Virus record (IMG/VR): IMGVR_UViG_3300025132_000022
Coordinates: 1-64,000 of that record
DNA length: 64,000 nucleotides
Direction: 5' to 3' (one strand)
Source of the DNA: a virus
Of the stretch, positions 1 to 26,944 are shown in pieces. Each line of letters starts with the position of its first letter. Within the stretch, counting starts at the first letter, position 1. The notes beneath the pieces were generated by a model that was not told the DNA's origin, did no database searches, and worked only from the letters and a program-made list of their open reading frames with translations. Position numbers and translations under genes: made by a program.

Positions 1-229
1 GCCAGTTTCTATCACTTCGGTCATAACAAACATGGTACTCGTCGCAAACCTGGACATCTCTCGTCTCATCCCAACAGTAATACCTGTTGCAAACCTCTAC
101 TCGTTCTGCTCGGTAGTAGCAATCATATTCTGTGTGAGAATAATCTCTACTGTATGTGTCGCAATCCTCGTCAAGAAATATCAGACATCCAGACACAGAT
201 AAAGACAAAATAACAAACAATGTTTTCAT
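1..229 (-). CDS. Cys/Tyr-rich lipoprotein, 3' end beyond window
   Basis: Partial gene, cut by the left edge of the window; only about 76 codons are visible. Read on the minus strand from the ATG at 229, it opens with a short hydrophobic signal peptide ending in the lipobox VSGC, so the mature protein should start with a lipidated Cys at residue 15. The visible mature part is rich in Cys, Tyr, Asp and Arg, without a recognisable domain. The ATG overlaps the stop of the preceding small membrane-protein gene (AAATGA), which suggests translational coupling. A GGGGT stretch just upstream is a weak ribosome site. Phage lipoproteins can serve as outer-membrane spanins or superinfection-exclusion factors; nothing here decides between these. 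Confidence 0.6.
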   Translation of the reverse strand, partial: MKTLFVILSLSVSGCLIFLDEDCDTYSRDYSHTEYDCYYRAERVEVCNRYYCWDETRDVQVCDEYHVCYDRSDRNW

Positions 230-2666: not shown

Positions 2667-2847
2667 GACGTTCATCTCTCACCATATTTATGTCGCCCGA
2701 CCAGACCCATATCTTCTGAGTTCCGAATAGGACAAGCATCTTTCCTACCTCGTTTGGTTCTTTCAACACTATACCATATCTAATTTCTGGAGTCAACAGT
2801 GGATCGAACTGCCAGTGTGTGTATTCAACAAGTTCCCCAACTCTCAC
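2653..2847 (-). CDS. Small SH3/KOW-like protein
   Basis: 64 residues from a GTG at 2847 that overlaps the upstream TGA (GTGA). The pattern is RVGELVEYTHW, then IRYGIVLKEPNEVGKMLVLFG, then KIWVWSGDINMV. This is the clearest example of the local barrel family, with the GELV, GIV, VLFG and WVW elements in order. Similar proteins are common in T4-like marine phages as unknowns. It probably binds nucleic acid or protein; no catalytic residues are evident. Confidence 0.65.
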   Translation of the reverse strand: MRVGELVEYTHWQFDPLLTPEIRYGIVLKEPNEVGKMLVLFGTQKIWVWSGDINMVRDERHGSK

Positions 2848-3050
2848 TGCCCATCAACGCCCCACTTGGTCCTGTACCAAACTCTTTCGTGAAAGTAGTA
2901 AAGTGCAGTCTTTGTGAGGATCTCGATGCCGCTGAAGGTTGCTCCAAACTCTATACTGCCAGTCAACAACCAGGCGAGTAAGAACGTATCGAGCGTCCCC
3001 ACCAGTCTCCATGTCAACGCCTTAGCAGCATGCCTTTTCTTTTGTACCAT
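2844..3050 (-). CDS. DUF2061 membrane protein
   Basis: 68 residues. I chose ATG 3050 because GGAG lies 8 nt before it; a TTG at 3062 is upstream in frame. The pattern KKRHAAKALTWRLVGTLDT, then FLLAWLLTGSIEFGAT, GIEILTKTALYYFHERVW is characteristic of DUF2061, a two-helix membrane family of unknown function found in marine bacteria and their phages. The start overlaps the 3' end of uvsE by 29 bases. Expected in the inner membrane. Confidence 0.85.
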   Translation of the reverse strand: MVQKKRHAAKALTWRLVGTLDTFLLAWLLTGSIEFGATFSGIEILTKTALYYFHERVWYRTKWGVDGQ

Positions 3051-3981
3051 TCTGTTCTCCAATCTCTTTTAGTATGTTTCTGTATTCCAAGAGTGCTAGT
3101 TCTTTCTTTTTGCACTCCAACATCATATCATAGTTTACACCATAATTATTAACAGGACTGTAAATATAGTCCGAATGTGCCTGTTCTTTAACTTTATTGT
3201 CGCGCTGCTCTTCACGTCTTGACTCTGACAAGTGAACAACTGGAGTGACCCCCTGCCAAGTAGATGCTGCAAGTTGCAATGCTTCGCCCTCGGTTTGACC
3301 ACCAGTACAAAATCTGTGGTGATGATAGTCGAACACGATAGGGATACGAATCACCTTGTGCACATAGTCGTACAAATGACGAGTGGACCACATCGATGCT
3401 TTGTCATCATTCTCCACCGTGATTCTGTTCTGGCAATTAGGAGACAATCTTAGGAAGTTGCGGCACCAACGATCTGCCGTGTTAGAGAAGTCGCCGCCGT
3501 ATGTGCCGCCGACATGTATGTTGATCTTAGCGTAAGGACTGTCAGGCAACCCCAACAGGTCAAATACCTCTGAGTGTGTCTCTAATTCCTTGATGGTCTT
3601 CTCAACGACATCTTGTCTTGGAGAACCAAGAACATTGAACGGACCTGGGTGTGTGGTGATGCGGTGTCCGTGTTTCCACGCATACAATCCTGCCTGGTCC
3701 AACCACCATGCAATGTCTTCATAGTCGGGCAAGTCTTTGAGGTTGTATTCCGAGGACCAGGGAAACAAGTCCGAAGACAGTCGAAAGAACTTGATATCGT
3801 TCGCTTCGTTCCACTGTAGAATGGTAAGCAGATCTTGGCAGTTCTGAAGTCCCAACTTCGAAGCATAGGCAATGCCCTTCTCTTGAAATGTCTTCTTGAT
3901 CATAGAGCGGTTTGTCGTAACGCGCTTGGACTTTGGAAGTGTGGACAGGTTCATGTTGATGCATGCGTATCCAAGATTCAT
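3022..3981 (-). CDS. uvsE: UV-damage endonuclease (UvsE/UVDE family)
   Basis: 319 residues, the normal length of bacterial UvsE. It is a TIM-barrel metalloenzyme that nicks DNA 5' of UV photoproducts without a glycosylase step. Visible family features are NLGYACINMNLS at the N-terminus, FFRLSSDLFPW, the HGHRITTHPGPFNVLGS segment with metal-ligand His residues, INIHVGGTYG, ENDDKASMW, FDYHHHRFC and VVHLSES near the end. It has its own sigma-70 promoter at 4011-4039 with a short leader and AAAGG ribosome site. It would let the phage repair UV lesions during infection in sunlit or desiccating habitats. Confidence 0.93.
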   Translation of the reverse strand: MNLGYACINMNLSTLPKSKRVTTNRSMIKKTFQEKGIAYASKLGLQNCQDLLTILQWNEANDIKFFRLSSDLFPWSSEYNLKDLPDYEDIAWWLDQAGLYAWKHGHRITTHPGPFNVLGSPRQDVVEKTIKELETHSEVFDLLGLPDSPYAKINIHVGGTYGGDFSNTADRWCRNFLRLSPNCQNRITVENDDKASMWSTRHLYDYVHKVIRIPIVFDYHHHRFCTGGQTEGEALQLAASTWQGVTPVVHLSESRREEQRDNKVKEQAHSDYIYSPVNNYGVNYDMMLECKKKELALLEYRNILKEIGEQNGTKEKACC

Positions 3982-4839: not shown

Positions 4840-5380
4840 ATCTTGTCACCTCCACCACTTTCGATAGAGCATACTTGTATGTAGAGGCAACATCGCTGCG
4901 ACCTCTACTTTCCGCGTCCTGTATCAGGAACCTCAACCTCTTAAATAAAAGTTCACAATTTATGTAAAATTCAAACGCCTTAACCAAAACACTGACACTT
5001 GTAAAACTCATAGATGTTGTTCTTTCGCTGAAGCACATTCTGTCTTTTGAGTCGTTCCTAAATTCTAGTTTCAACAATGTCTTTGACTTCAGGGAGATTT
5101 GTCTCCTGTCCGTGTGATCTACCTGAAAGTATAAGTCACTCAACTGTATAGTGTTTAGAGATCTGTAGTCATTCTTATAAGTGTCGAGAAGTGCGTTAAA
5201 CCCAGCGTCCACAAGTCCGACTCCAGTCCCAGAGACCTCCTTGATGTCGGGACCCTCACCTATGCTCAACGTAACATTTGTTTGTTCGGGACTCTCGATC
5301 AAGTTGAGCGACACCAACGTCAAGGACACCTTCTCCTTGAGGTACTCGATAAAGTACTGAAAAATAAGATCTTTGTTCAT
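4823..5380 (-). CDS. Stand-alone LeuA allosteric/dimer-like domain protein
   Basis: 185 residues. Residues about 30-95 look like the C-terminal regulatory domain of 2-isopropylmalate synthase: TNVTLSIGEGPDIKEVSGTG, then VGLVDAGFNALLDTY, then IQLSDLYFQVD. In LeuA the equivalent is GxGPVDAAFxAL, which binds leucine and forms dimers. No catalytic TIM barrel is present. The second half (SERTTSMSFTSVSVLVKAFE and a helical end) is unrelated. Similar free-standing versions occur in marine phages. It may sense or bind a small ligand; function is inferred only. Confidence 0.65.
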   Translation of the reverse strand: MNKDLIFQYFIEYLKEKVSLTLVSLNLIESPEQTNVTLSIGEGPDIKEVSGTGVGLVDAGFNALLDTYKNDYRSLNTIQLSDLYFQVDHTDRRQISLKSKTLLKLEFRNDSKDRMCFSERTTSMSFTSVSVLVKAFEFYINCELLFKRLRFLIQDAESRGRSDVASTYKYALSKVVEVTRYQNIS

Positions 5381-5760
5381 ACTGTTGTCTTTTCAAAACC
5401 CTGTGAGATTTTAAATATTTTGCGAACCCCACTAGTCTGCTTGACCATTCTGAGAATCTTCAACTTGGCATCCTCGGGAGATCTCAGGACACCTGGCAAA
5501 CTAGGTATGAACTTTATTCTCAGTCCAGCGATGTAGTCGGTATCTGAAATCTTCTGATTTTTAACCATAATGGTAACAACCGTTACGCTGGGGATAGCGC
5601 GAATGTCTGCGACGATGTCCTCAAGACCACGATAACCCTTCTCGCCCTTGGTCTCGGCATTGTACCCAAGCATCATATAAAACTGATAGACCCCTGTTTG
5701 TCTGGATCGTTCCTGCTTTTCAGTTATTAAGGAATTGAAGTAATCTTGTATTTCGTTCAT
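5377..5760 (-). CDS. Conserved-type hypothetical protein, 127 aa
   Basis: ATG at 5760; the stop overlaps the next ATG (ATGA). A helical N-terminus (EIQDYFNSLITEKQERSRQ) precedes a ferredoxin-like alternating region: LEDIVADIRAIPSVTVVTIMV, then GLRIKFIPSLPGVLRSPEDAKLKILRMVKQ. The pattern resembles unknown proteins of T4-like marine phages. No catalytic motif is seen. It begins a two-gene unit with the LeuA-like protein, downstream of the hsp20 terminator. Confidence 0.6.
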   Translation of the reverse strand: MNEIQDYFNSLITEKQERSRQTGVYQFYMMLGYNAETKGEKGYRGLEDIVADIRAIPSVTVVTIMVKNQKISDTDYIAGLRIKFIPSLPGVLRSPEDAKLKILRMVKQTSGVRKIFKISQGFEKTTV

Positions 5761-5801
5761 GTCACCACCGTTTATAGTAAGTAGTTATTCGCAAAGAGAA
5801 A

Positions 5802-5821
5802 GGGGGAGCAAAAACTCCCCC
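5802..5821 (-). terminator. Rho-independent terminator after hsp20
   Basis: On the coding strand GGGGGAG, a TTTTTG loop and CTCCCCC are followed by TTTCTCTTT. It lies eight bases after the hsp20 stop and separates that gene from the unit starting at 5760. Confidence 0.85.
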
Positions 5822-5828
5822 AGTTTAT

Positions 5829-6263
5829 CTATTTTATCTCGATAGACAGAGGTTGCGCCTCGGGGCGCTGTGGGACTCTAACTGTGAGTAAACCATTCTC
5901 AAACTGTGCTTTTGCCTGAGATAAGTCTAGGTTATCATCGTAGTTAACGTATGTTCTCGTAAAGTTCCGACGAGCAATCCTTTGTCTTTTCTCATTCTTA
6001 TCGTCAACCTGACCAGTGATGGTGATTGTTCTCTTTCCAGGTTGAATGTCTATGGCAAGTTCCTTCTTCTTGAACCCTGCCAAAGCAAACTCCAAAACTG
6101 TAGAACCATCGTCGTCTCGATAAATGTCGGCAACGGGATAACCCTTTGTGGATTGCTTGAGAACATTAGAGAACAGATCCCCATCGTTGAAAAAATTATC
6201 AAACACCTCGTTGATAACTTGGTGACCTAAAAGTCCAGGTCGGTATGTAGTAATTGCATTCAT
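5829..6263 (-). CDS. Small heat-shock protein, Hsp20/IbpA-like
   Basis: 144 residues when started at the ATG at 6263, which follows AAGGAGGAAAACAAC; a longer frame to 6326 has no such ribosome site and would begin at the transcription start. The alpha-crystallin domain is clear: YPVADIYRDDDGSTVLEFAL, AGFKKKELAIDIQ, ITITGQ, then RRNFTRTYVNYDDNLDL and FENGLLTVRVP. A C-terminal IxI-type motif (LSIEIK) is present. It holds unfolding proteins in an ATP-independent way. The gene has its own strong promoter (6333-6361) and terminator (5802-5821), so it is a monocistronic unit. Confidence 0.93.
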   Translation of the reverse strand: MNAITTYRPGLLGHQVINEVFDNFFNDGDLFSNVLKQSTKGYPVADIYRDDDGSTVLEFALAGFKKKELAIDIQPGKRTITITGQVDDKNEKRQRIARRNFTRTYVNYDDNLDLSQAKAQFENGLLTVRVPQRPEAQPLSIEIK

Positions 6264-10186: not shown

Positions 10187-11230
10187 TTATAGAAGTTTAT
10201 TCGTTCTTTGTCTTAACTCTTCCGAATCTGAGGATGCTGCTAATCCTGCTGCGGAGTTGTTTTCTACAAAGTATGAGTTTACGTTGTTGGACAGTCTTTC
10301 GATGGTCTGATAAATGCCTGATAGATTTTCTCCGAGTTTACTCGCGTGCCTCTGGGCAACCTCTAGTAAGTCATTTCTTGATCCGAGGTTTATATTAGCA
10401 AAAGGTGCGTGCGCCTTCTTTGCATACTTTAAAGATAACCCAGGACTGTTGAGTGATTTTACATCGTAGTCACCTCTCAGAGAATTTAAATCGAAATCGA
10501 GTTTTCCCATCTTCTCTTGTTGTAGTAAATTACGATAAAAAGCAGATCGCCTATCGTTGATACCAATGCTAAACTGGTGGAAACTCACAGAAATTACAGA
10601 TCCATCATCTGATCTTGACTTCAATCCTAGTAAGTATTGCATAGGTGCCTTGTTTTTTACGATGTCCCTAGCTAAGTTAGCAACTGAACCTTTGATGTAC
10701 TTATTTTCACCATCGAACATGAACTTAAGTGACATAGGTGTGTTACCTACCATTATATCGGTCACGTCCTGTTTTGGGCCACCTTTAGTGTCTATCTGTT
10801 TAGCATCACCTCCAGCAAGAGCAACCATCAAAGACTCAAACAAGAACCCACCCGTCTTGTCATTGTAGTCATCCATGACTGCGGCGAGCGACTCAAGAAA
10901 GACAAGATTCGCTAATGTTTCTCCCACGTCTTTTGAATTTACGCACGCCTTATCACACTCGTTCACAAAGTTAGAAAGACTGTTCAACTTTTCTTGCAAC
11001 GTATTACCAGCAATTCTCTTGGTAAACATCTCGATCACCGCTCTATCCTGAGATTCAGGTTTGCCCCACTTTTCAGATATTCTAAATTTAGGCAAGACAA
11101 CTGCAAATCTTTCTTGACTATCAGTATCCTTCGACAGCACGTCTGGAATCGAATCTCTATTACCGACGCGTTCAGAAATTGGTTTCCCTGCTTTGGCGAA
11201 CAACTCAACTAAAAGATCTAAATCATTCAT
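10187..11230 (-). CDS. Conserved-type phage protein, PD-(D/E)XK-like motif
   Basis: 347 residues. The N-terminus is FAKAGKPISERVGNRDSIPD, familiar from unknown proteins of marine T4-like phages. The central part GGFLFESLMVALAGGDAKQI, then QDVTDIMVGNTPMSLKFMFD, has a Glu, then an Asp, then SLK in the order and spacing of PD-(D/E)XK nucleases, where the last motif is often variant. The C-terminal third is helical. It could be a nuclease or a structural protein. The start overlaps the ClpP-like gene; the stop lies just beyond the groEL promoter. Confidence 0.6.
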   Translation of the reverse strand: MNDLDLLVELFAKAGKPISERVGNRDSIPDVLSKDTDSQERFAVVLPKFRISEKWGKPESQDRAVIEMFTKRIAGNTLQEKLNSLSNFVNECDKACVNSKDVGETLANLVFLESLAAVMDDYNDKTGGFLFESLMVALAGGDAKQIDTKGGPKQDVTDIMVGNTPMSLKFMFDGENKYIKGSVANLARDIVKNKAPMQYLLGLKSRSDDGSVISVSFHQFSIGINDRRSAFYRNLLQQEKMGKLDFDLNSLRGDYDVKSLNSPGLSLKYAKKAHAPFANINLGSRNDLLEVAQRHASKLGENLSGIYQTIERLSNNVNSYFVENNSAAGLAASSDSEELRQRTNKLL

Positions 11231-11964
11231 AGATAATCGTCTGCGATACCGTATTTGATCGCTTCCTCTGCAGATAAATAGGCGTCAACATTGTTTGAAA
11301 GCAGTTTTTTAATCTTGCTTCTGGTCAACTTCGTGCAAGAACATAGGTAATCAAAATACATATCCTGCAATGCTTTTGTTTCTTTCATCTCATTCTCAAT
11401 ATTGGGGAATGATCCATGGTGTCCACTAATCACACTGTGAAGCATTACTCTACAGTTACGTCCGATCTTCCTACTGCCCTTTGTACCGCTTGCAAGTATA
11501 AGTACACCTGCTGACATGACCTTTCCAATGCCGATAGTTTCAATATCACAATCTTGCTTGATCGTTCCCATGATGTCGATAATGGAAAACATGTCGGAAA
11601 CAATACCGCCGTGTGTGGAAATATACATCTTAAATGGTTTCTTGACTTCCATCACGTTGCCATCCTCTGTCTCCACTACATCTCTCTTTGTGTGATCAAA
11701 GTACAACATTGCCTGAACAACCTCGGCTGCCATTCTCTCAGTGATGTCACCGTAGCAATTGATCGCTCTAATGTCATCCTTATCTGACTTGCCGTCGATG
11801 TTGTTTATGATGTAGATCGGTTGCTTACCTGTTTCGGCAATCTCGTCTGCAAAATCTTTTGCCAAATCCTCAAGGGTCTCGCCTTCTTTCTTCTTCTTTT
11901 TCTTTTTGGAGTATTCTCGTATTACAAATTCTCCGAAATTTTGATTAGATAACTTTTTTGGCAT
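11227..11964 (-). CDS. ClpP-family serine protease
   Basis: 245 residues. A Lys-rich N-terminus (EYSKKKKKKKEGETLE) precedes a ClpP/crotonase fold: FKMYISTHGGIVSDMFSIID, then GIGKVMSAGVLILASG with the nucleophile Ser of the MSAG motif, then RVMLHSVISG with the catalytic His, and SAEEAIKYGIADDYL at the end. It may act as the head-maturation protease, as ClpP-like enzymes do in many phages, particularly since an acidic, scaffold-like protein is encoded three genes upstream, or as a general protease. The Lys tract is unlike bacterial ClpP. Confidence 0.88.
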   Translation of the reverse strand: MPKKLSNQNFGEFVIREYSKKKKKKKEGETLEDLAKDFADEIAETGKQPIYIINNIDGKSDKDDIRAINCYGDITERMAAEVVQAMLYFDHTKRDVVETEDGNVMEVKKPFKMYISTHGGIVSDMFSIIDIMGTIKQDCDIETIGIGKVMSAGVLILASGTKGSRKIGRNCRVMLHSVISGHHGSFPNIENEMKETKALQDMYFDYLCSCTKLTRSKIKKLLSNNVDAYLSAEEAIKYGIADDYL

Positions 11965-12241
11965 TGTAGACCCTCTCTTTGTTTGTAGGAGTTTTCTCCA
12001 CGATCCTGAATGGAAACCTTCTAAGGAAAGACTTCCACTTGTTATCGTCTTGAAATTTTCTCTGCAAGATCAAGATCGACTTCTTCTCTCTTGGACTGAA
12101 ACCTTCTGAGCATTCACTCCAATCATTTAATTCCTTAAGGAGTGTCTTAACTTTTCTCCCATCTTTGTACTTGAGTTGTATCCTGCACACAACAGTCTTG
12201 TCATCGTTGCGCGCTTCTCTCCATGCGACTATATCCATCAT
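11945..12241 (-). CDS. Hypothetical basic protein, 98 aa
   Basis: Two adjacent ATGs at 12241 after GGAGTT. Rich in Lys/Arg and aromatic residues: KTVVCRIQLKYKDGRKVKTL, KKSILILQRKFQDDNKW, FLRRFPFRIVEK. The first half looks like beta strands and the second like helices. It may bind nucleic acid, but no family is recognised. The stop overlaps the ClpP-like start. Confidence 0.6.
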   Translation of the reverse strand: MMDIVAWREARNDDKTVVCRIQLKYKDGRKVKTLLKELNDWSECSEGFSPREKKSILILQRKFQDDNKWKSFLRRFPFRIVEKTPTNKERVYNAKKVI

Positions 12242-12246
12242 AACTC

Positions 12247-12597
12247 CTATGGTTTAAAATCTTTAAAATCTGTTTTTTGAAAATATCTGATGTAACTTTT
12301 TGGGGCCCCTTTCAAAATAATGGTTGAACACAAAACTCCCCAGTTCTGAATTATCTCATTCTGTGCGGATTGGTGTTTTTCTATCTCGTCTTCATCCATT
12401 CCAACACCCCGAAGGTGATCACTAGATATCTCAAGAGACTCTTTCAGGTGTCTTTGGAATTCACTGGATATTAGCAGAAAAGAGGCCATGATCTTTACGA
12501 TCATGTCTCTCTGTTCTTTTTGATTGGAGTAAGTGGAGAGTGCTCTCATGAGCACTGCTCCCATTACAAACCAAAATAGTGCGTAGGTTATTTCCAT
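12247..12597 (-). CDS. N-terminally membrane-anchored helical protein, 116 aa
   Basis: A hydrophobic N-terminal segment (YALFWFVMGAVLMRAL) is followed by long amphipathic helices (MIVKIMASFLLISSEFQRHL, DEIEKHQSAQNEIIQNWG) and a short basic end. No known domain. It has a plausible promoter only a few bases upstream (12605-12633), which would give an almost leaderless message; no good ribosome site is visible before ATG 12597. Confidence 0.65.
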   Translation of the reverse strand: MEITYALFWFVMGAVLMRALSTYSNQKEQRDMIVKIMASFLLISSEFQRHLKESLEISSDHLRGVGMDEDEIEKHQSAQNEIIQNWGVLCSTIILKGAPKSYIRYFQKTDFKDFKP

Positions 12598-12604
12598 AGT
12601 TTAT

Positions 12605-12633
12605 ATACTACTATGTCCTTTCCGTGGGGTCAA
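12605..12633 (-). promoter_or_regulatory. Probable sigma-70 promoter
   Basis: TTGACC, 17 bp, TAGTAT on the coding strand; the -10 box ends about seven bases before ATG 12597. The -35 is strong and the -10 is imperfect. Confidence 0.55.
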
Positions 12634-16917: not shown

Positions 16918-19900
16918 CTATGCTAATATTCTAAAAGATTTTCTTACTGATCTCGTACTGAATCCCCATTGTGCATCCCATTGCAACCTTGCCATATAGG
17001 GTCTGTTAACGTAGATCTTGTCCTTGTCTGGATCGACTCCCCAACACTTGATAGTATTTTCCTCAGAGTTTGAATCGATAACCTTAACTACATAAAACAA
17101 TTTACCATTTTTTGTCTTCTTTTGCAAGACTTCTCTCGGAATAAACCAACAAACTTGCAACTCTGTATCAAATTCTGAGATTGCAGGTATCATCAGTTCG
17201 TCAATCCTGTGCTGTAACTGTTCTGTCACCACAGTGCTCATTGGAAATATCCCAACAAGGTCAACGAGGTACTGTAGTTTCTCCCCTTCTGTCAAGTCTC
17301 CTTCATTTTCGAACTTCTCAATATTTTCTAGAAGATTCTTCTCTTTTCGAGGTCTTTCAACCGCCACAGCAGACCAAAAATGCTTGAGTCCCGTAAACCT
17401 CTCGTCCATAAGACAGTTAAGTGCCTGACTCAAACAAAGGGCGGAGACTGCTTTCTTGTTCAACTTGGAGTACTTTATGTTTTCATTAAACAGGAAGTCT
17501 TCTATTTTCTTGAACGGCCTGTGATCCATTATCTGCTCGATAGCGGTTGTACCCAGTCCCTTGATGGAAGACAGTGGTTGAATCAGAGTCTTACCATCTT
17601 CACTAATCTCCCACCTGACCCCAGAAGTGTTAACATTCAGAGGTTCAATTCTGTATCCATAAGACTTAGCAACATTGATGGCCCGCTCCTTGCGCTTATC
17701 AGGTTCCTTGTCGAGGAACGCTGCTAACCAACACTCTGGATAATAGTGTAAAAGATAAGCACATTGAAAAGAAAGCACGCAATAGGAGACAGCGTGAGAT
17801 TTATTAAAACCGTAACCAGAAAAGTACTCGAACTTACCCCACAACTCCTTAGTTTCATGTTGCTTCATTCCTTTCTCTAGACAACCTCGTCTAAACTTAT
17901 CATAGATTTTGTCCATCTCTACTTGGGCAGATCCTGTGCCCTTCTTGGTTAGGAGTTTTCTTAACTTGTTACCCTCATCAAGCGACAGGTTCTTGCCAAG
18001 TTTGTGGGCAAGCATTGCAATCTGCTCTTGAAAGATGAGGAAACCATACGTCTCTTCAGTAATGTCCCTAACGTAATCATTAAGGTACTCTACATCTTCA
18101 GGATTCTCTTTAGCCCCGATGTACATCTTGTCAACGCCTGCAGATAGTGGACCAGGACGGTATATAGAAGTAATGGCAGCAAGGTCTGTAATATTATTCG
18201 GTCTAGCATTCTTACAAAATGACTGCGCTCCACCTTCCGTAAATTGGAAGATCCCTGCCCACTTTCCTTCATGGAATACATTTTCCCATACCTCCTTGTC
18301 ATCGAGATTAATCTTCTCTGGGTGTAGGTTCATCTCGTAAAACGTCTTTATGTCTTCAAACGTAGGATTCTCAAAACCCTCATACCTAACTAGTACGTGC
18401 CTGATTGCATCTTCCATCATGCGCAAAGACGCCAATCCCAAGATGTCGAACTTAATAAACCCCATCGGTTCAAGGTGCCTTACATTCTGACCTTCTGACC
18501 AAGGTGTTTGCCGAACGCCGCCTGAGTTGATAAGAGGCATCCACTCGTTTAAATTCTCACCGACAACGACTCCGCCAGCGTGTCTTGATGCTGACCTGGT
18601 TTGTCCATAAAGAGTGTTGACGTGAGTCTTGACGTCTGGATACTTCTCCAAGAAGTCCTGAAGTGTTTCCGAGTACTCCATCAACTCTTCAAATGTTGGA
18701 TTATATACACCCGCTGTGATGCCATGTGCCTTCTTCGCCAGAGGAGTCGCCTCGTAAACCATCTTGTTAGTGACAGCATTCACCTCTGCAAAGGGTATTT
18801 TATAAAACTTTGAAATGTCTTTAACGAGTGATCTTAACTGTAGTGTGTTCCAGTTTGTAATCGGAACAACAACATCATCGCCCCACTCTTCAATAAGATG
18901 CTCTTTGAGAACCATTGGGTCAGAAACATCGTAATCGATATCAGGATAACCAGATCCGCCTTTTGTCAAAAAACGCTCAAATTGCAGTCCGTAACGGATC
19001 GGATCTACCTGTGTGATACCCAAGGCATAAGCAACCAGAGAACCCGCAGCAGAACCTCTTCCTGCGCCTGTTAACTGCATTCTCGTCGCTTCTTCGGCGA
19101 TCTTCTTCATGGTAAGAAAGTACTTACTAAACCCTCTATCCTCAATTACGTTTGCCTCGTATCTTAATCTTTCAATATAGTGTGGTTTATCAGCAAAACC
19201 CTTCTCTCTCGCGCCCTCGACGCACAATATCGCTAATGCTTGACCTGCAGTCTCTCCCTCTGGAACGACAAAGTCTGGAAGTCGAACTGTATTGTCTGGC
19301 ATGAAAGTTTCAATTCGCTCATGAGCAATGCTGTATGTTCTGGATATAGAGTTCATTATTAGGTTGTCGTCATACTCTACGCCGCACTCTTTTGAATACT
19401 TCTTATAACTCTCCCACATCTGATCTCCGTTCTTGGGGTAAAGTTCGTATCCAATCTCGTCTGTATCGACAGGCAGGTCTTCACTCATCCACTCCACCTT
19501 TCGTCCAAGGAAACCTAACCTCTTATAAAGTTCCCTATCCTTCCATGCGTCGGGAGAGTAGTAATGAGAATCTGCAGTTGAAATCAATTCAATACCAAAC
19601 TCATAATGCATCTGTATGATGAACTGATTCAAAGCGTGTTGCTCTGGTACATTATTCCATTGCAACTCCCCATACCATCTATCGCCAAAGATAGACTGCA
19701 TCTTTTGTGTAGTCTTCCTAAACGCATCGAGTACCGCGTCTTCACCAAATTCTATGTTTGCTCGATAATCAGTCGCATAGACACCACCTAAACAAGCCGA
19801 AGCGGCAATGACTCCCTCGCCATGCTTCTTTAACATGGCGTAGTCAATTCTTGGATAGCGATAGAAGTTATCGCCCGCATAAGACTTGGAGATCATCTTG

Positions 19901-20340
19901 AATATATTTTGAAGTCCTTTTTGGTTTTGCGCCAACAGTATAAGGTGACTCCTTCTGTTCAAAATAGACTTTACTTTTCTCTTGGACGCCTCATCTTCTA
20001 TCGTTGCGCCTGACTGAGTTGATTCAAGTTGCTTCTTATTTTTCGCCTCTTCCTTTATTCTATTGTAGTCCTCTTTCCAGTTTGCAACACTTGGCACGAA
20101 ATATGCTTCACAACCGAATATTGGTTTGAACTCCTTGCCCTCGCTCATCATCTTCTTAGCGTGAATAACCTGATATGCTAAACCGTTTGCGTTGCCGTGG
20201 TCGGTTAGTGCCAAGGCATCCATGCCATTCCCGTAGGCAAAGTCCATATGCTGTTGCGGATATCCTAGCGCATCAAATATCGATCCTGCAACCGAATGTG
20301 CATGCAATCCAACAAATGGGATTTTAGGTTCTTCTCTCAT
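16918..20340 (-). CDS. dnaE: DNA polymerase III alpha subunit, DnaE type
   Basis: 1140 residues, full length for bacterial DnaE. The PHP domain comes first: FVGLHAHSVAGSIFDALGYP, LTDHGNANG, FGCEAYFVPS, STADSHYYS, with its metal ligands apparently kept, so intrinsic Zn-dependent proofreading is possible. The palm has the catalytic pair GYPDIDYDVSD; the fingers include GYGFNKSHAVSYC; GLGTTAIEQIMDHRPFKK is helix-hairpin-helix; an OB-type end follows. No separate epsilon-like exonuclease is in the window. A promoter lies inside the gene upstream (20490-20517). It should be the main replicase, beside the short PolA-type enzyme. Confidence 0.96.
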   Translation of the reverse strand: MREEPKIPFVGLHAHSVAGSIFDALGYPQQHMDFAYGNGMDALALTDHGNANGLAYQVIHAKKMMSEGKEFKPIFGCEAYFVPSVANWKEDYNRIKEEAKNKKQLESTQSGATIEDEASKRKVKSILNRRSHLILLAQNQKGLQNIFKMISKSYAGDNFYRYPRIDYAMLKKHGEGVIAASACLGGVYATDYRANIEFGEDAVLDAFRKTTQKMQSIFGDRWYGELQWNNVPEQHALNQFIIQMHYEFGIELISTADSHYYSPDAWKDRELYKRLGFLGRKVEWMSEDLPVDTDEIGYELYPKNGDQMWESYKKYSKECGVEYDDNLIMNSISRTYSIAHERIETFMPDNTVRLPDFVVPEGETAGQALAILCVEGAREKGFADKPHYIERLRYEANVIEDRGFSKYFLTMKKIAEEATRMQLTGAGRGSAAGSLVAYALGITQVDPIRYGLQFERFLTKGGSGYPDIDYDVSDPMVLKEHLIEEWGDDVVVPITNWNTLQLRSLVKDISKFYKIPFAEVNAVTNKMVYEATPLAKKAHGITAGVYNPTFEELMEYSETLQDFLEKYPDVKTHVNTLYGQTRSASRHAGGVVVGENLNEWMPLINSGGVRQTPWSEGQNVRHLEPMGFIKFDILGLASLRMMEDAIRHVLVRYEGFENPTFEDIKTFYEMNLHPEKINLDDKEVWENVFHEGKWAGIFQFTEGGAQSFCKNARPNNITDLAAITSIYRPGPLSAGVDKMYIGAKENPEDVEYLNDYVRDITEETYGFLIFQEQIAMLAHKLGKNLSLDEGNKLRKLLTKKGTGSAQVEMDKIYDKFRRGCLEKGMKQHETKELWGKFEYFSGYGFNKSHAVSYCVLSFQCAYLLHYYPECWLAAFLDKEPDKRKERAINVAKSYGYRIEPLNVNTSGVRWEISEDGKTLIQPLSSIKGLGTTAIEQIMDHRPFKKIEDFLFNENIKYSKLNKKAVSALCLSQALNCLMDERFTGLKHFWSAVAVERPRKEKNLLENIEKFENEGDLTEGEKLQYLVDLVGIFPMSTVVTEQLQHRIDELMIPAISEFDTELQVCWFIPREVLQKKTKNGKLFYVVKVIDSNSEENTIKCWGVDPDKDKIYVNRPYMARLQWDAQWGFSTRSVRKSFRILA

Positions 20341-20350
20341 ACTGTTCCTT

Positions 20351-21154
20351 TCATTTCTTCATCGCCGCCGAGAAACAATATCTCCAGTCGCTGCTGATCT
20401 TCAAAGGATCTTGCATCATCTCTTGATATCCATTCCACGAGGAAATGTCTTTGTAACTTTCTAATTCCATTGAATCACTATTTTCACTCATTATACCATC
20501 ACCAAAAACCTTGTCAAGAGTATAATTGCTCTTTACATCAATTCTCTTAAATAAATATGAGCAGTGCTTGAATTGCCTAACACTAAAGCTAAATCCCATA
20601 TGATGTCCAGTCAGTGCACTGTCCCCATTGTAGGTGTAAAAGAACGACTCGTTCTGTTTAACTAAGGATCTCGCCTCCGTTATTCTTGGATTGTACACAC
20701 CGTAAGGTGAAGATACATAATACCTGTAAGGAGTGATCCACTTAGATATTTTATCACTCACGGTAAAACTAGCACTAACCCCTTCCATAACAGAGACACC
20801 GATGCCCCTCTTATTCATGTTCTTGTAAGAAAGAGGCACATAAAATATAGGCGTGTGTGTTCTATTATCTGTTGGGAAGTTAGTAAACTTGGCGCGCTCG
20901 TGTTGAGCGAGGTTTAGGACAAAATCCCCACAAATTCTTTTCAGCAGTGGCGCTGTTGATTCATCACAAACAACCCAAATCGTCTTACAACCCATGTAAG
21001 AGCACTCGACAATACTTCTCTGGATTGCATAAAAACTGTTGTCGATAGGTAGGACGCTTGGATGTATGACCAAATCTATATCAGAATCAACTTTAGATAC
21101 TGGAACAATCCCTGCTATGTGTTTTGATAATGTCGCTTCGTTTCTTTCTGTCAT
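20351..21154 (-). CDS. Nucleotidyltransferase-like phage protein
   Basis: 267 residues from ATG 21154 (MTERNEATLS); the frame is open further up to 21280 but that part overlaps another gene. KHIAGIVPVSKVDSDIDLVI, then SFYAIQRSIVECSYMGCKTI, WVVCDES and PIFYVPLSYKNMNKRGIG match a conserved marine-phage family annotated as nucleotidyltransferase (GT-A-like fold). A later part, KISKWITPYRYYVSSPYGVY, is also typical. Substrate is unknown. The 3' end carries a perfect promoter for dnaE. Confidence 0.7.
   Translation of the reverse strand: MTERNEATLSKHIAGIVPVSKVDSDIDLVIHPSVLPIDNSFYAIQRSIVECSYMGCKTIWVVCDESTAPLLKRICGDFVLNLAQHERAKFTNFPTDNRTHTPIFYVPLSYKNMNKRGIGVSVMEGVSASFTVSDKISKWITPYRYYVSSPYGVYNPRITEARSLVKQNESFFYTYNGDSALTGHHMGFSFSVRQFKHCSYLFKRIDVKSNYTLDKVFGDGIMSENSDSMELESYKDISSWNGYQEMMQDPLKISSDWRYCFSAAMKK
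20490..20517 (-). promoter_or_regulatory. Consensus sigma-70 promoter upstream of dnaE
   Basis: TTGACA, 16 bp, TATAAT on the coding strand, inside the 3' end of the preceding gene and about 150 bases before the dnaE ATG. Confidence 0.75.
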
Positions 21155-21854
21155 AAAACCTAACTTTCTTGGTGCTCTTGTATATGATCTCTTCGATCGG
21201 CAAGACCTTTCTATCCAGTACCTCAAGTTTGGGTTTTCTTCTGGAACTGCGATCTTTCGATACCAAAGGTTTGTACACACCTTCGTTATTTTGAAACAAC
21301 TTTTCGACCATGAACCTAACCATCGTATCAGAGTAATCGAAGTTTGTCAACTGTTCTTTGCTCAGGTAGCACAGAGAGAATACGTCTTTTTTGCCAATGG
21401 ACTCGATTCTTGAAATAAACCCCTCCTTTGGGAAAATTGGAACTAAATTAGACGCATCACAAAATTTCAACCTCATAAAATCAACAATTTTGTATTGATC
21501 TTCGTGCTCAGTGTGAGTAATATCTAGATCAGTCTTCACTGCACTGTGCGGAAACATGTGACATCTCTTGAACTCAATCTGCGATTCTCGAATGTGGATT
21601 TTGTCATTCTCCACCCTAACATACTCCAGGTTGTTGGGGTTAATAACTAACCCTCGCATGGCACACAAAAACTTTAACATAGACCATGCTTCGGCATGCC
21701 TGTCTGTTACGAGATGTTCAATAGTTATCTGTTTTTCAAACTTTAGGTCAATAGTTGGTTGAGTATGCCTCGGTATCACTATCGGTATTTCATCCCTGTA
21801 GGATTTCAACAGCGCAGAAACACACCCACCAACTATTACTTGATCAAGGATCAA
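21093..21854 (-). CDS. Conserved-type phage protein with Rossmann-like start
   Basis: 253 residues from TTG 21854, overlapping the upstream TGA (TTGA). The opening ILDQVIVGGCVSALLKSY resembles the first strand and Gly-rich turn of FAD/NAD-binding proteins, though the GxGxxG motif is incomplete. Later parts (AEAWSMLKFLCAMRGLVIN, VDFMRLKFCDASNLVPIFPK) match an unknown family in marine phages in which this gene precedes the nucleotidyltransferase-like gene, as here. Likely works with that neighbour; the reaction is unknown. Confidence 0.6.
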   Translation of the reverse strand: MILDQVIVGGCVSALLKSYRDEIPIVIPRHTQPTIDLKFEKQITIEHLVTDRHAEAWSMLKFLCAMRGLVINPNNLEYVRVENDKIHIRESQIEFKRCHMFPHSAVKTDLDITHTEHEDQYKIVDFMRLKFCDASNLVPIFPKEGFISRIESIGKKDVFSLCYLSKEQLTNFDYSDTMVRFMVEKLFQNNEGVYKPLVSKDRSSRRKPKLEVLDRKVLPIEEIIYKSTKKVRFYDRKKRSDIIKTHSRDCSSI

Positions 21855-23908
21855 TTACAAATTCTCAAAACAAAATCATACCTATTGTTACTAGCGGGCA
21901 TGAATCCTGAATTGTCAGTACTTCTTGCATCTTCTTCAGGTTGGACCAAGCATATCTCATCCAATATGGACATTAGATCATCATACATCTGCTGTTGATT
22001 GGAGGACAATTCGAAGACGCGACCATTACCGTGAGAAGCAAAGTTGTCCCAAACGCGAGAGCGACGTTCGGCGAATGCGTAAAACTTCAGATTGGGAGTT
22101 GCGTCCAGGGCGTCCCAAACTGTGTCCGACTGAATTCTAGGAACGAGAAAAGACTGAGAGTACTCGTCGCTGAAGAGTACAATTATCCTGTCAGCATTAG
22201 ACCTCCAGTTAACCTTGAAGAACTTGAGTTCAGGATGAGACCCGACTCGATTGGCCCATCGAGACTGAGTGAAATCGTATCCAACATTGCCTGAGATGTT
22301 GGCGATAGACAACAATATCGCATCTCTAAGCATCTCTTGTCCTGTCTGATTATCAAACTGTCCCACGTTCGCGAACGACACAAGGAAATCTTCGAAGTCC
22401 GCTATGTCGGACTGCAGTATGAGTATCTCCATGTTCCCTGTAGGGGTCGTGCGATGTTTTGGTCCCACGATCAATCCCCATTTGAGTTTATCCTCGGCCG
22501 AGAAATCCTGTGCGAACCTATTCATCGCCATCCTTACCGCATTTATGTAATTTTCCATAGAACCAGACCAGTCTACGATAAAAAGAATATCCGTCTCTGG
22601 AATTTCTTCACCGTAATCGACTATGCCGTCGCAATCATTATCTGCGCCGTCGCAGATCTCAGCGTTGGGTAAGGTTTCGCCGCCACAAAGGTCAGAGATC
22701 TGCCTACCTGATTGGTCTCGCCCAAACCACTGTCCAGCGTTGCAAACCTGCGATCCCTCTTCACACACTCCAACGTTCAGCGTACCTTCTGGTCCTGTGT
22801 AACACGGGCGGGTTAATTGCTCGTCCACCAGACTGTCGCAGTCTTCATCAAAATTGTTACACAGTTCTGGATTCGTAGGTATTCCGACAAACTGATTACA
22901 GGTAGACTGCTCCTGTTGCTCAAGTTCTGGAACCCAGTGACACAAAGCATAACATTCTGTCATTTGAGTTACCTGACACTCCTCATTCACACACTCGCAT
23001 GTCTTGAATCCCATGCCACAGGTTAAGGGTGGTTCCATACAAGGCACCAAAGCTCCGACAGACTCTGGTGGACACTGGCAATTCAGTCCCTCATCTACAA
23101 GACTGTCACAGTCGTTGTCTTGTCCGTCACACTGTTCGTCTACTGGTCGATCTGCAGTGCACCCTACCCAGTTACCATTACCACAAATCTCCAATCCTGA
23201 ATTGCAGATAGTGGAACACTCTCTTATCAACTGTTCATCGATAAAGGTGTCACAGTCATTATCTAAACCATCGCATATGTCTTCGGGTACCTGGCCGCAT
23301 CCGCCGCAGGCATTCAACTGGTTTTCGTCAATGTTCCCATCGCAATCGTTGTCGATGCTGTCGCAGACTTCCTCTTCCTCGAAGCACGTAACACACTCGC
23401 CATAATAAAGTCTGCCTTTATCGCACCTGACCTGCTGGGTGCCAGAAGTGCCTTCTATTTCACAATCGTAATACATTGTAAAGTCTTCATTTATACCAGG
23501 TGGACAGTCAAAAGCGTGCTGGCACTCAGTCTGTTCGATTATTTCCGCAGGGGGACAGTTCGGGTCTCTGTTCCTATCACAAGGGGTTAAGTTTTCATCA
23601 CAAATATCCAACACGGCATACCTTGCTTGGATCTCTACACCTTGAGGCGGACAGTACCAGGTCTGTTGTTGGCAGCAAGTTGGATTGCAATCGCAAAACC
23701 TAACATGTGTGTTTGAAATGTTCGCGCATGGATCCACCCACGCATCAACTGTGATATCTGGTATTATGACAACTTGAACGTCTTGAGTCCTGGCGTCTGA
23801 TACGAGACTTCTGGACTGTTCCATGTCCGCAGTCCCAACCGTTGTCTCATCGTTGCAACTAACAATCGTTAGAAAGCAAACTGTATATACGCTTAACTTT
23901 TTTAACAT
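21851..23908 (-). CDS. VWA lipoprotein with MopE-type Cys/Asp repeats
   Basis: 685 residues. A signal peptide ends in TIVSC, a lipobox with lipidated Cys at residue 18, so the protein is exported and membrane-anchored. Residues about 40-430 are Cys-rich and hold five MopE-like metal-binding motifs, such as CDSIDNDCDGNIDE, CDGLDNDCDTFIDE, CDGQDNDCDSLVDE, CNNFDEDCDSLVDE and CDGADNDCDGIVDY. A von Willebrand factor A domain follows, with MIDAS motif DILFIVDWSGSMENYI. The end is hydrophilic. Such proteins are common in myxobacteria and relatives, rare in phages. It may bind calcium or copper and adhere at the cell surface. It sits beside the exported transglycosylase. Confidence 0.9.
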   Translation of the reverse strand: MLKKLSVYTVCFLTIVSCNDETTVGTADMEQSRSLVSDARTQDVQVVIIPDITVDAWVDPCANISNTHVRFCDCNPTCCQQQTWYCPPQGVEIQARYAVLDICDENLTPCDRNRDPNCPPAEIIEQTECQHAFDCPPGINEDFTMYYDCEIEGTSGTQQVRCDKGRLYYGECVTCFEEEEVCDSIDNDCDGNIDENQLNACGGCGQVPEDICDGLDNDCDTFIDEQLIRECSTICNSGLEICGNGNWVGCTADRPVDEQCDGQDNDCDSLVDEGLNCQCPPESVGALVPCMEPPLTCGMGFKTCECVNEECQVTQMTECYALCHWVPELEQQEQSTCNQFVGIPTNPELCNNFDEDCDSLVDEQLTRPCYTGPEGTLNVGVCEEGSQVCNAGQWFGRDQSGRQISDLCGGETLPNAEICDGADNDCDGIVDYGEEIPETDILFIVDWSGSMENYINAVRMAMNRFAQDFSAEDKLKWGLIVGPKHRTTPTGNMEILILQSDIADFEDFLVSFANVGQFDNQTGQEMLRDAILLSIANISGNVGYDFTQSRWANRVGSHPELKFFKVNWRSNADRIIVLFSDEYSQSFLVPRIQSDTVWDALDATPNLKFYAFAERRSRVWDNFASHGNGRVFELSSNQQQMYDDLMSILDEICLVQPEEDARSTDNSGFMPASNNRYDFVLRICN

Positions 23909-24335
23909 AACCTAACCTTTTATAAAATCCCTTTTTTGTAATACATTTTGTGCCTGCATTGTAATAGCACAATCCCTTATCAACATTACCAACAGCGTAC
24001 ACTCTGATATGATAAGAGAGTATCTCCGCCCCAACCCTTATTGATGTCTTTGGGTCTTTTAGTTGTTTGCAAGTATACTTTGTAAACATACTTTCTGGTC
24101 CTCCAGTCCATCTAGGTACTACCTGTGTTAACCCACAAGCACCAGCGGAACTGACCGCATTTTTATAAAATCCACTTTCAACATATATAACTGCTGCAAG
24201 CAGTGCGGGATCTAGAGAGTTGCGTTTTGCCTCTGACCTTATTATATCCTCATACTTGCACATGCTACTGTGCTGATAGTCAGTTAGTTCCAAGTTCTGG
24301 TGAGACAATATGCACAGTGAAAGCAAAAATACCAT
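23859..24335 (-). CDS. Exported lytic transglycosylase, SLT/LT family
   Basis: 158 residues from ATG 24335, which overlaps the ThyX stop (TAATG); a longer frame exists but lies in ThyX. A hydrophobic start (MVFLLSLCILSHQN) looks like a signal peptide. The goose-type/SLT fold is clear: LDPALLAAVIYVESGFYKNA with the catalytic Glu of the ES motif, AGACGLTQVVP, then KTSIRVGAEILSYHIR and GLCYYNAG. It cleaves glycan strands of peptidoglycan in the periplasm, for lysis or to insert a large envelope protein. The 3' end overlaps the VWA lipoprotein gene by 50 bases. Confidence 0.9.
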   Translation of the reverse strand: MVFLLSLCILSHQNLELTDYQHSSMCKYEDIIRSEAKRNSLDPALLAAVIYVESGFYKNAVSSAGACGLTQVVPRWTGGPESMFTKYTCKQLKDPKTSIRVGAEILSYHIRVYAVGNVDKGLCYYNAGTKCITKKGFYKRLGYVKKVKRIYSLLSNDC

Positions 24336-25039
24336 TACTTCTCCATCTTGTTTTGTATAAACGAATGTACGGAGTGGGGAAAGTACTCCTCCGCTATCTC
24401 CAGACACGCTTCAGCAACTTGCTGGATTTCCCACTGAGCACCTTCGTGAGATCTCAATTGGATGAACTTCAAAAGGTTGTGCAGATTGACAGTGCCATAA
24501 TACTTTGTATACAAGTTTTGAGGTAGGACACCCCTTGCCTGCTCGCGACAAACTCCAGACTTTATGAGTTCGTTGAACAGTTTCAAGCATTCGTTATTGT
24601 GTGTCCTGACCATACTAGATGCAACTCCAGACACTGGCAGTCCCGATCTATTGTACTCGACAATTGGATCAATCAACTCATTCTTGCTTGCCTGCCTGTT
24701 GCTTTCGTGCTGAGTCCTGAACTCTCTTGGTTCATAAAACTGCATATCTATCGCAGTATATCTGCGAGAAATTTCATTATATGCCCAAGTGCGATGCCTA
24801 TGGTGCTGACTGCGAATAAACAGAGGCACGGTGAACCGAAAAGTAATAGCACAGTGCTCAAAGGGGGAAGAGTGGTTGTGTGCCATAAGGTAGTTGATAA
24901 GTTTAGTATCCTTTTCATCTACTTCCTCTTTTTCTGTGCCGAACGAAACTCGTGCGGCATTAACAACTGACAAATCCGAACCCATATGCGAAATGTACTC
25001 AACCGCACCGATGTCGTCTCCAAATAATTCAACCCTCAT
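24335..25039 (-). CDS. thyX: FAD-dependent thymidylate synthase ThyX
   Basis: 234 residues from ATG 25039, which has CAGGAGACCGA just upstream; seven extra residues upstream lie in the GroES-like gene. The ThyX signature RHRTWAYNEISRRY (RHRx7S) is intact and is followed by YEPREFR. Other conserved parts are NHSSPFEHCAITFRF and ARGVLPQNLYTKYYGTVNLH. It makes dTMP from dUMP using methylene-tetrahydrofolate and FAD/NADPH. Common in large phages; it pairs with TK, dUTPase and the B12-dependent RNR here. Overlaps both neighbours. Confidence 0.96.
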   Translation of the reverse strand: MRVELFGDDIGAVEYISHMGSDLSVVNAARVSFGTEKEEVDEKDTKLINYLMAHNHSSPFEHCAITFRFTVPLFIRSQHHRHRTWAYNEISRRYTAIDMQFYEPREFRTQHESNRQASKNELIDPIVEYNRSGLPVSGVASSMVRTHNNECLKLFNELIKSGVCREQARGVLPQNLYTKYYGTVNLHNLLKFIQLRSHEGAQWEIQQVAEACLEIAEEYFPHSVHSFIQNKMEK

Positions 25040-25349
25040 TCGGTCTCCTGTATATACCAACCACGTAGTTTTCCAAAATCATGTAGTGGGTCTTCCCACC
25101 GATGTCTACTTCCTCTATCATGGTCTTGTCGACAACGATCTCCTTGGGTCCGACCGTGCCGTACTTGAGATCATGAAAATCCCTTTTACAATCTGATGCA
25201 ATATCAATTACGGTCGCCTTTATAAATCGAGATTCCTCTGTCTTAAAGTTGTTGGGTAAAATAACCCCAGTCTCAGTCTTGTCCACTTTGTAGTGGGGCA
25301 CGATACAAATGTGCCTGTTGACTGGTTTTAGTCTTTTTACCTCAGTCAT
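25029..25349 (-). CDS. GroES-like co-chaperonin
   Basis: 106 residues from ATG 25349, placed five bases after GGAGG; ATG also overlaps the preceding stop (ATGACTGA). A GroES fold is suggested by RLKPVNRHICIVPHYKVDKT, the mobile loop KTETGVILPNNF with the hydrophobic V-I-L for GroEL binding, and ILENYVVGIYRRP at the end. Like T4 gp31 it should cap the chaperonin, probably the phage GroEL encoded at 8545-10128. It is unusual that the two are 15 kb apart and not in one operon. Confidence 0.85.
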   Translation of the reverse strand: MTEVKRLKPVNRHICIVPHYKVDKTETGVILPNNFKTEESRFIKATVIDIASDCKRDFHDLKYGTVGPKEIVVDKTMIEEVDIGGKTHYMILENYVVGIYRRPNEG

Positions 25350-25696: not shown

Positions 25697-26005
25697 TTAC
25701 TCAAGTTTGAAACTGAGTTGTGCGCCGAATTGGTGATCAGTCTGCCAGTCATTTCTCAAAGAGTTGTTCAAAAGGTAGAATGTTCTGTAACTAATCTTCT
25801 GTGATAGTCTAAAGTTGAACCCGACACTAACCCTGTTCCTAGTGACCCGACTCTCCCTGATGGTGAAACTCTCCCTTATGAACATCTTGTCATATCCAAT
25901 CTCAACCCTGTTTTCAAACCAAAACTTTTTATTAGCGTTTGCATGCGGTGGAAACAGGAACCATACGTAGATAATGACCGCCTGTAAGAGTAGCAACCTT
26001 GGCAT
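25697..26005 (-). CDS. Small exported beta-rich protein, possible outer-membrane type
   Basis: 102 residues. The N-terminus is a signal peptide, LLLLQAVIIYVWFLFPPHAN, with a likely cut at ANA/NK. The mature part is a series of amphipathic strands (KKFWFENRVEIGYDKMFI, RVSVGFNFRLSQKISYRTFY, HQFGAQLSFKLE) that ends in a Lys-Leu-Glu. This strand pattern recalls DUF2490-type outer-membrane proteins but the protein is very short. GGGAG precedes ATG 26005. It follows the phosphate permease gene and may work with it. Confidence 0.6.
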   Translation of the reverse strand: MPRLLLLQAVIIYVWFLFPPHANANKKFWFENRVEIGYDKMFIRESFTIRESRVTRNRVSVGFNFRLSQKISYRTFYLLNNSLRNDWQTDHQFGAQLSFKLE

Positions 26006-26008
26006 TTC

Positions 26009-26944
26009 TCATGACACTCCCTGTACCAATAGTACTATAACAATCGACACAGACAGTCCCAACATCATTTTCATAAAGTCCCTCGCTACAAGAGGAAACA
26101 CCTTCTTCACTTTCCTGTCCATTCTTGTAGCGATTGCTAGTTCTCGACCACATAGGAGTCCTACGAACACCCAGGTCGTGCTCATTGGAATGTTGTTCAT
26201 CTGCTTGAGGTACAATAAAATAAAGGCATAAACGGCATCAATAATTGTTGCTGATCTAACGTAAGACGTGGAGGATTTCTCGATCACTATCTCCTGTATC
26301 TTGCCTCCCTTGGTATAGAACACGTACCCCAATACAGATACCAACAACACGATAACACCTGACAAGAACCCTGCGCTCATCTGTCGTGGTGCGAAAACTG
26401 CTATGTTTGCAAGGTCGTGACTTAACCAAGTGAACCACAGGAACCCCGTCGTGCCCCACTGGGCGATCCTCCAGGCGCGTTCATGATCTGGTTTGACTTT
26501 CTTCTTTTCATTCAAGTATTTGGATAAAATCATCCAAAATGCGTAAGCTACTGTTGCTGCAATGGCATACCCCATCACACTCTTCAGTAACATCTTTTCA
26601 AAAACAACAGTACTAGCAAAGGCAGACAGCACTAAAAATGTTGTGGAGACTGGGATGCCGTACCTTGTCAATAGCAACAGTACGCCTGGTGCCAAGGCGT
26701 GATACCACTCAACTGTGACAAAGGGTATCTTCTCTAAGCGTCCGAAGGATATATCTCCTCCGTACGAAAACCAACTATAAAGAACCGTAGCAACAAGAAC
26801 CGAAGAGGATGCTGCCCACAACTTCCACCAGGGTGTCTTTTTATTCGACACCATAAACGTTCCCAGGGTCTGTACAGCGTCGTTGCTCATAACAGCAGCG
26901 CCCGCAAGGGCAAGACCAACAAGGGGATAAACCATCTCTAACAT
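26009..26944 (-). CDS. PiT-family inorganic phosphate permease
   Basis: 311 residues, about eight to nine membrane helices. The PiT signature is present in both halves: AGAAVMSNDAVQTLGTFMV near the N-terminus and TWLSHDLANIAVFAPR in the middle. IPVSTTFLVLSAFAST and IPMSTTWVFVGLLCG are the paired repeats typical of the family. It is shorter than most cellular PiT proteins (around 400-500). It would import phosphate during infection, an auxiliary metabolic role seen for phosphate genes in marine phages. AAAGGAG precedes ATG 26944. Confidence 0.88.
   Translation of the reverse strand: MLEMVYPLVGLALAGAAVMSNDAVQTLGTFMVSNKKTPWWKLWAASSSVLVATVLYSWFSYGGDISFGRLEKIPFVTVEWYHALAPGVLLLLTRYGIPVSTTFLVLSAFASTVVFEKMLLKSVMGYAIAATVAYAFWMILSKYLNEKKKVKPDHERAWRIAQWGTTGFLWFTWLSHDLANIAVFAPRQMSAGFLSGVIVLLVSVLGYVFYTKGGKIQEIVIEKSSTSYVRSATIIDAVYAFILLYLKQMNNIPMSTTWVFVGLLCGRELAIATRMDRKVKKVFPLVARDFMKMMLGLSVSIVIVLLVQGVS

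Follow-up and report, generated by a model that had tools for sequence, protein, structure and literature searches.

Phage genes known to alter the surface of the infected cell code mostly for small lipoproteins or for glycan enzymes, and the lipoproteins known to act in superinfection exclusion are small. Outer-membrane lipoproteins of phages, among which Llp of phage T5, block receptors; phage lipoproteins have been described as small, and Llp was found to be periplasmic (PMC9586334). In MopE of Methylococcus capsulatus the copper site is formed by two His residues and a Trp-derived kynurenine (PMC3423442).

The gene described here (Table 1) is located in a window (the whole stretch of 64,000 nucleotides that was analysed) belonging to a virus record of 121,518 bp. 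The record harbours tail sheath, tube and baseplate genes of a contractile tail, and the label phage is therefore right. An earlier note on this DNA had described a lipobox, five MopE-type motifs and a VWA domain in one phage gene. This was confirmed except for one detail, as the fifth motif ends in DY, not DE; all five follow CxxxDxDCDxxxD. The signal peptide and the lipobox (I15-V16-S17-C18) were assigned by eye and by rule, without a trained predictor. Cys18, the putative lipid-bearing residue, is invariant in 43 non-redundant relatives, and the +2 residue following it is mostly Ser, Ala, Asn or Thr (Asp in only 1/43). Complete family members contain about 48-57 Cys residues each, a number that would be consistent with an oxidising compartment. 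An exported, lipid-anchored protein of the host-surface class is the likely assignment.

Table 1 Features of the lipoprotein gene and its neighbours (positions in the window; residues of the 685-aa product)
Feature	Position	Strand	Basis or remark
MopE/VWA lipoprotein gene, 685 aa	21851..23908	-	ORF list, Pfam and relatives
Signal peptide and lipobox, residues 1-18 (IVS-C18)	23855..23908	-	Read from the sequence
Disordered tether, residues 19-57	23738..23854	-	pLDDT < 50 over 17-55
N-terminal Cys-rich domain, residues 58-175, without known family	23384..23737	-	
MopE motif 1, CDSIDNDCDGNIDE, residues 182-195	23324..23365	-	Conserved in relatives
MopE motif 2, CDGLDNDCDTFIDE, residues 212-225	23234..23275	-	Conserved in relatives
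MopE motif 3, CDGQDNDCDSLVDE, residues 260-273	23090..23131	-	Conserved in relatives
MopE motif 4, CNNFDEDCDSLVDE, residues 350-363	22820..22861	-	Conserved in relatives
MopE motif 5, CDGADNDCDGIVDY, residues 419-432	22613..22654	-	Conserved in relatives
VWA / integrin I-like domain, residues 436-655	21944..22603	-	Pfam, AF2 model and fold search
MIDAS core DWSGS, residues 446-450	22559..22573	-	D446, S448 and S450 invariant
Exported SLT transglycosylase, optional neighbour	23859..24407	-	Pfam SLT 1e-18, 67.4 bits (cut-off 21.3)
ThyX, conserved upstream context	24335..25060	-	
Conserved downstream gene without assigned function	21093..21854	-	4-nt overlap with the lipoprotein gene
DnaE-type DNA polymerase III alpha, conserved downstream context	16918..20340	-	

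The Pfam family Cu-binding_MopE matched the lipoprotein with an E value of 1.6e-10 (41.5 bits, cut-off 27), and the VWA match in the window's own protein (E 0.002) was below the cut-off. Among the family members a MopE match was found in 43/43 and a VWA match in 31/43. The AF2 model of the lipoprotein has a pLDDT of 78.5 and a pTM of 0.44. A Foldseek comparison of the modelled VWA domain with the PDB gave integrin I domains at E ~1e-6, the top matches being integrin beta I, the CD11b I domain, mussel-byssus PTMP1 and the pilus adhesin SpaC. A Cys-rich stalk that bears an integrin I-like domain with a MIDAS conforms to the plan of an adhesin, and with these best matches it could be speculated that the protein serves spread or survival, infected cells sticking to cells or particles or being grazed or preyed upon differently, rather than exclusion of other phages. 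This reading is considered less likely, the exchange of alleles described below being explained equally well by exclusion. The N-terminal Cys-rich domain matched no Pfam family, and a fold search of residues 58-175 against the PDB gave nothing below E 0.1. Searches of PADLOC, which covers defence systems, PHROGs and NCBIfam with the lipoprotein gave no match.

A scan of IMG/VR with the single protein revealed 76 loci, and roughly 90 contigs were obtained after scans with alignments. The relatives on these contigs, all of them metagenomic, share 41-89% identity and are mostly full-length. Residue conservation was counted over the 43 non-redundant members. The lipid Cys, the Cys and Asp residues of the motifs, DxSGSM, D581 and E582 are invariant, and because the first three are so in all 43 the five-motif/VWA architecture is not due to chance. 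At the aligned position of the MIDAS Thr, Thr occurs in 27 and Ser in 4 of the 43 members (T/S 31/43), next to the invariant D446, S448, S450 and D581. Selection is strongly purifying, with dN/dS values not exceeding about 0.13 in those comparisons where synonymous sites are unsaturated. Longer family members carry one or more additional MopE motifs; locus L040 harbours two such lipoproteins in tandem, both with motifs and VWA domain, and L376 a tandem pair of profile matches. A tblastn search of plasmids and of the genomes of cultured phages gave no match, and no report on the lipoprotein was found in the published literature searched. The lipoprotein is a real and widespread viral family.

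The motif D-x-D-x-D-G-x-x-D suits a calcium loop. The MopE motifs of the phage family resemble such DxDxDG loops, and to judge from these residues calcium is likelier than copper, because the copper ligands of MopE are missing here: no His is invariant in the 43 members. The name Cu-binding_MopE of the Pfam family would fit a metal-acquisition gene supplying copper to the benefit of host or phage, but with a motif that looks like a calcium loop and without an invariant counterpart of the two His residues in the His-kynurenine site such a role is very improbable. An absence of conserved metal ligands on alignment, which the earlier note had named as evidence against its reading, did not occur, the ligands being invariant.

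The architecture had been ascribed to myxobacteria. This holds for the MopE repeats, a hallmark of Myxococcota found hundreds of times per genome among the matches listed (up to 371 matches in a single genome), but not for the whole protein. When 84,980 species genomes were scanned, the cellular matches, among those listed, covered mainly MopE repeats at mostly 30-36% identity and came mostly from Myxococcota; a full-length cellular homologue was not found among the matches listed. Locus L081 (46%) appeared to be one and was rejected as a chimeric MAG contig of GC-rich bacterial DNA with a phage-like end. The N-terminal domain was found in 0/331 genomes of Myxococcota, the phylum of MAG G001, in which a positive control for this domain does not exist; this search was done with alignment A3, and matches of alignment A2 were dominated by an extra MopE repeat. 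VWA matches in Myxococcota genomes were weak and generic, and in cellular MopE proteins the VWA domain stands ahead of the repeats wherever the order is readable, the reverse of the phage order. With an N-terminal domain lacking a counterpart in Pfam, among PDB folds and in Myxococcota, the architecture is viral, partly assembled from modules common in Myxococcota. The earlier note had considered that the gene may reveal the host lineage, but no lineage emerged: the phage has a G+C content of 42.6%, and its tetranucleotide signature singled out none of the cellular MopE loci (best r 0.42). A Bacteroidetes host, an idea derived from the mature protein beginning with C-x-D-E, was put aside because many of the phage genes have strong AGGAGG-like ribosome sites.

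In most loci the gene order is RNR, two small genes, thyX, an optional SLT gene, the lipoprotein gene, g21093, g20351 and dnaE. The lipoprotein slot is thus flanked by thyX and by the g21093-g20351-dnaE block, frequently with overlaps of 4 nt, and is apart from the tail module. Overlaps this short point to a single transcript, and with nucleotide and replication genes (thyX, dnaE) as neighbours, not the tail module, the lipoprotein is probably made early or midway in infection. According to the locus table, it is present in 29/29 loci whose DnaE reaches 72% identity or more and whose upstream sequence is long enough, and absent from that slot in 32/32 loci of a sister group (DnaE 64-68%), a count of the locus only, as absence at the slot is not absence from the genome. 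The lipoprotein is core in its own DnaE lineage. It is also carried in other phage contexts (L015, L016, L018, L019, L020, L030, L031, L040 and L045). A structural protein of the virion, for decoration or receptor binding, could be considered since VWA-domain proteins of unassigned role occur in other phages. However, the lipobox, the early-type gene context outside the head and tail modules and the lack of a PHROG match argue against it, and little credence is given to this explanation. Homologues found only as virion structural proteins, also named beforehand as counterevidence, were not encountered, and no tie to virion genes was seen.

Several other genes of the window and of related contigs deserve mention. 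The products of 21093-21854 (-) and 20351-21280 (-) are conserved in sister phages and belong to no Pfam or PHROG family; the former begins with a VIVGG motif and is possibly dinucleotide-binding. A PHO4-like phosphate permease (26009-26944 (-), below the Pfam cut-off) recurs in L007, L028, L072 and L077 and is adjoined by a short exported protein that matches DUF2490 weakly (25697-26005 (-)). The tail sheath (49666-52788 (-)) is unusually long, with 1040 aa and about 500 extra N-terminal residues, its C-terminal half matching tail sheath families. Three protein-folding genes, GroEL, Hsp20 and FKBP, occur in this one phage (8545-10128, 5829-6326 and 1413-1850 (-)). Small Cys-rich lipoproteins are encoded at 2-229 (-) of the window, in L016 (7667-7963) and in L068 (7722-8009); the latter two look homologous and directly precede the large lipoprotein in different contexts. 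By eye, phage contig L045 carries an apparent cysteine synthase and phosphoenolpyruvate carboxykinase (4998-5843 and 11166-12614), and L018 encodes a cytochrome c-like exported protein with CxxCH (2742-3158).

The exported SLT transglycosylase gene shares 50 nt with the lipoprotein gene (23859-23908). The gene pair was found in 23/70 loci only; the SLT gene is missing beside the lipoprotein gene in the other 47/70. In eight sister loci without the lipoprotein the SLT gene fills the slot, and there it probably preceded the lipoprotein. The proposal that the lipoprotein is exported through a wall opened by the transglycosylase fits neither the 47 loci nor these sister phages, and is unsupported. 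The two proteins might act together at the envelope during lysis: the SLT gene, where present, is directly upstream, also in differing contexts (L020, L030, L031), and SLT identity tracks the lipoprotein gene alone (Mantel r 0.38, p 0.03, n 15). The same 47 loci and sister phages count against such a lysis accessory, as do loci L002 and L004, which share 98% identity on either side and yet differ in SLT and in the initial 132 nt of the lipoprotein gene. By inspection, moreover, a series of genes for small membrane or exported proteins, located separately at ~76.6-77.6 kb of genome G000 (L078 12603-13629), looks like a holin/spanin lysis cassette, without Pfam support. A role in lysis is therefore judged improbable.

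The overlap of about 50 nt implies that a swap of the SLT gene carries the signal peptide of the lipoprotein along. Exchange was also apparent from pairwise identities. Those of the lipoprotein correlate poorly with those of the downstream genes (Mantel r 0.21-0.26) and better with thyX (r 0.51), while the downstream genes correlate among themselves with r 0.77-0.93, 20351-21280 and 21093-21854 co-varying tightly with DnaE and DnaB. A DnaE clade of seven must be split in the lipoprotein tree (AU test, p 2.7e-6). Without L021 the p value was 2.8e-67, and with the five closest members only the rejection was weaker (p 0.03). L021 itself was set aside as clean proof of recombination, since the assembly could have joined its L017-like and L023-like halves into a chimera; with relatives that are all metagenomic contigs, individual recombinants may be artefacts of assembly. 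Lipoprotein alleles are exchanged among phages and lineages, as expected for a host-facing gene.

The best reading of these data is a lipid-anchored, calcium-stiffened surface adhesin or receptor-blocker, with superinfection exclusion as its most likely function. We infer export, lipidation, outer-membrane display, calcium loops and a binding role for the lipoprotein. To judge from gene order and overlaps, the gene would be transcribed with the nucleotide and replication genes; given the lipobox and the +2 residue, the product would be exported by Sec, receive its lipid at Cys18 and be delivered to the outer membrane. There, a disordered tether would be followed by the unique disulfide-rich domain and by a stalk in which disulfides, and probably Ca2+, hold the DxDxDG-like loops. 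Next would come the VWA domain, integrin I-like and with a metal site of the MIDAS type; it would bind a component of the host surface, and the N-terminal domain may do so as well. The likeliest benefit would be superinfection exclusion by covering or jamming a receptor, with adhesion or surface remodelling of infected cells as a close alternative. For a surface protein made early, core in one lineage and swapped between phages, receptor blocking fits best by analogy with T5 Llp. As a whole, a lipoprotein specific to phages that belongs to the infected cell rather than to the virion, and would bind the host surface, is the best explanation and is held at nearly even confidence; superinfection exclusion as its purpose, argued from analogy, is put forward tentatively. 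The marine phage clade probably rebuilds the host surface during infection. It is more doubtful that a new lipid-anchored, allele-exchanged family of phage-encoded integrin-like adhesins on infected marine bacteria controls contacts with competing phages, neighbour cells or predators.

If true, a lipid-anchored protein of 75 kDa with several domains, which belongs to the core genes of a lineage of marine phages and is swapped among phages, would represent a large new class of surface-remodellers and offer a concrete gene for studying superinfection or adhesion in uncultured ocean hosts, together with a new domain (residues 58-175) so far found in viruses only. Its parts are shared with several known systems. 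Surface proteins of Myxococcota with MopE repeats (PF11617) have the same CDGxDNDCDGxxDE units and some carry a VWA domain, but the latter precedes the repeats in those where the order is readable, the N-terminal domain of the phage protein is lacking (0/331 genomes) and identity, among the matches listed, is mostly about 30-36%, mainly over the repeats. MopE of M. capsulatus is not known to have a VWA domain. This name-giving member of the same Pfam motif family was stabilised by calcium during purification (PMC3423442), while its copper site of two His and kynurenine is not conserved in the phage family. Integrin I domains and the MIDAS adhesin SpaC share the VWA fold with DxSGS and an invariant Asp, but their identity to the phage protein is low (10-17%) and the MIDAS Thr is not invariant in the phage family. 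VWA domains have been noted in phage genomes, in ORFs of Aeh1 and RB43, with weak VWA scores and, in the passages concerned, without mention of MopE repeats or a lipobox (PMC1524935). As is proposed for the present protein, T5 Llp and similar proteins are lipoproteins of the outer membrane that the infected cell makes from phage genes (PMC9586334), but these are small and Llp is periplasmic, whereas the phage lipoprotein described here is a multidomain protein of 685 aa with a VWA domain.
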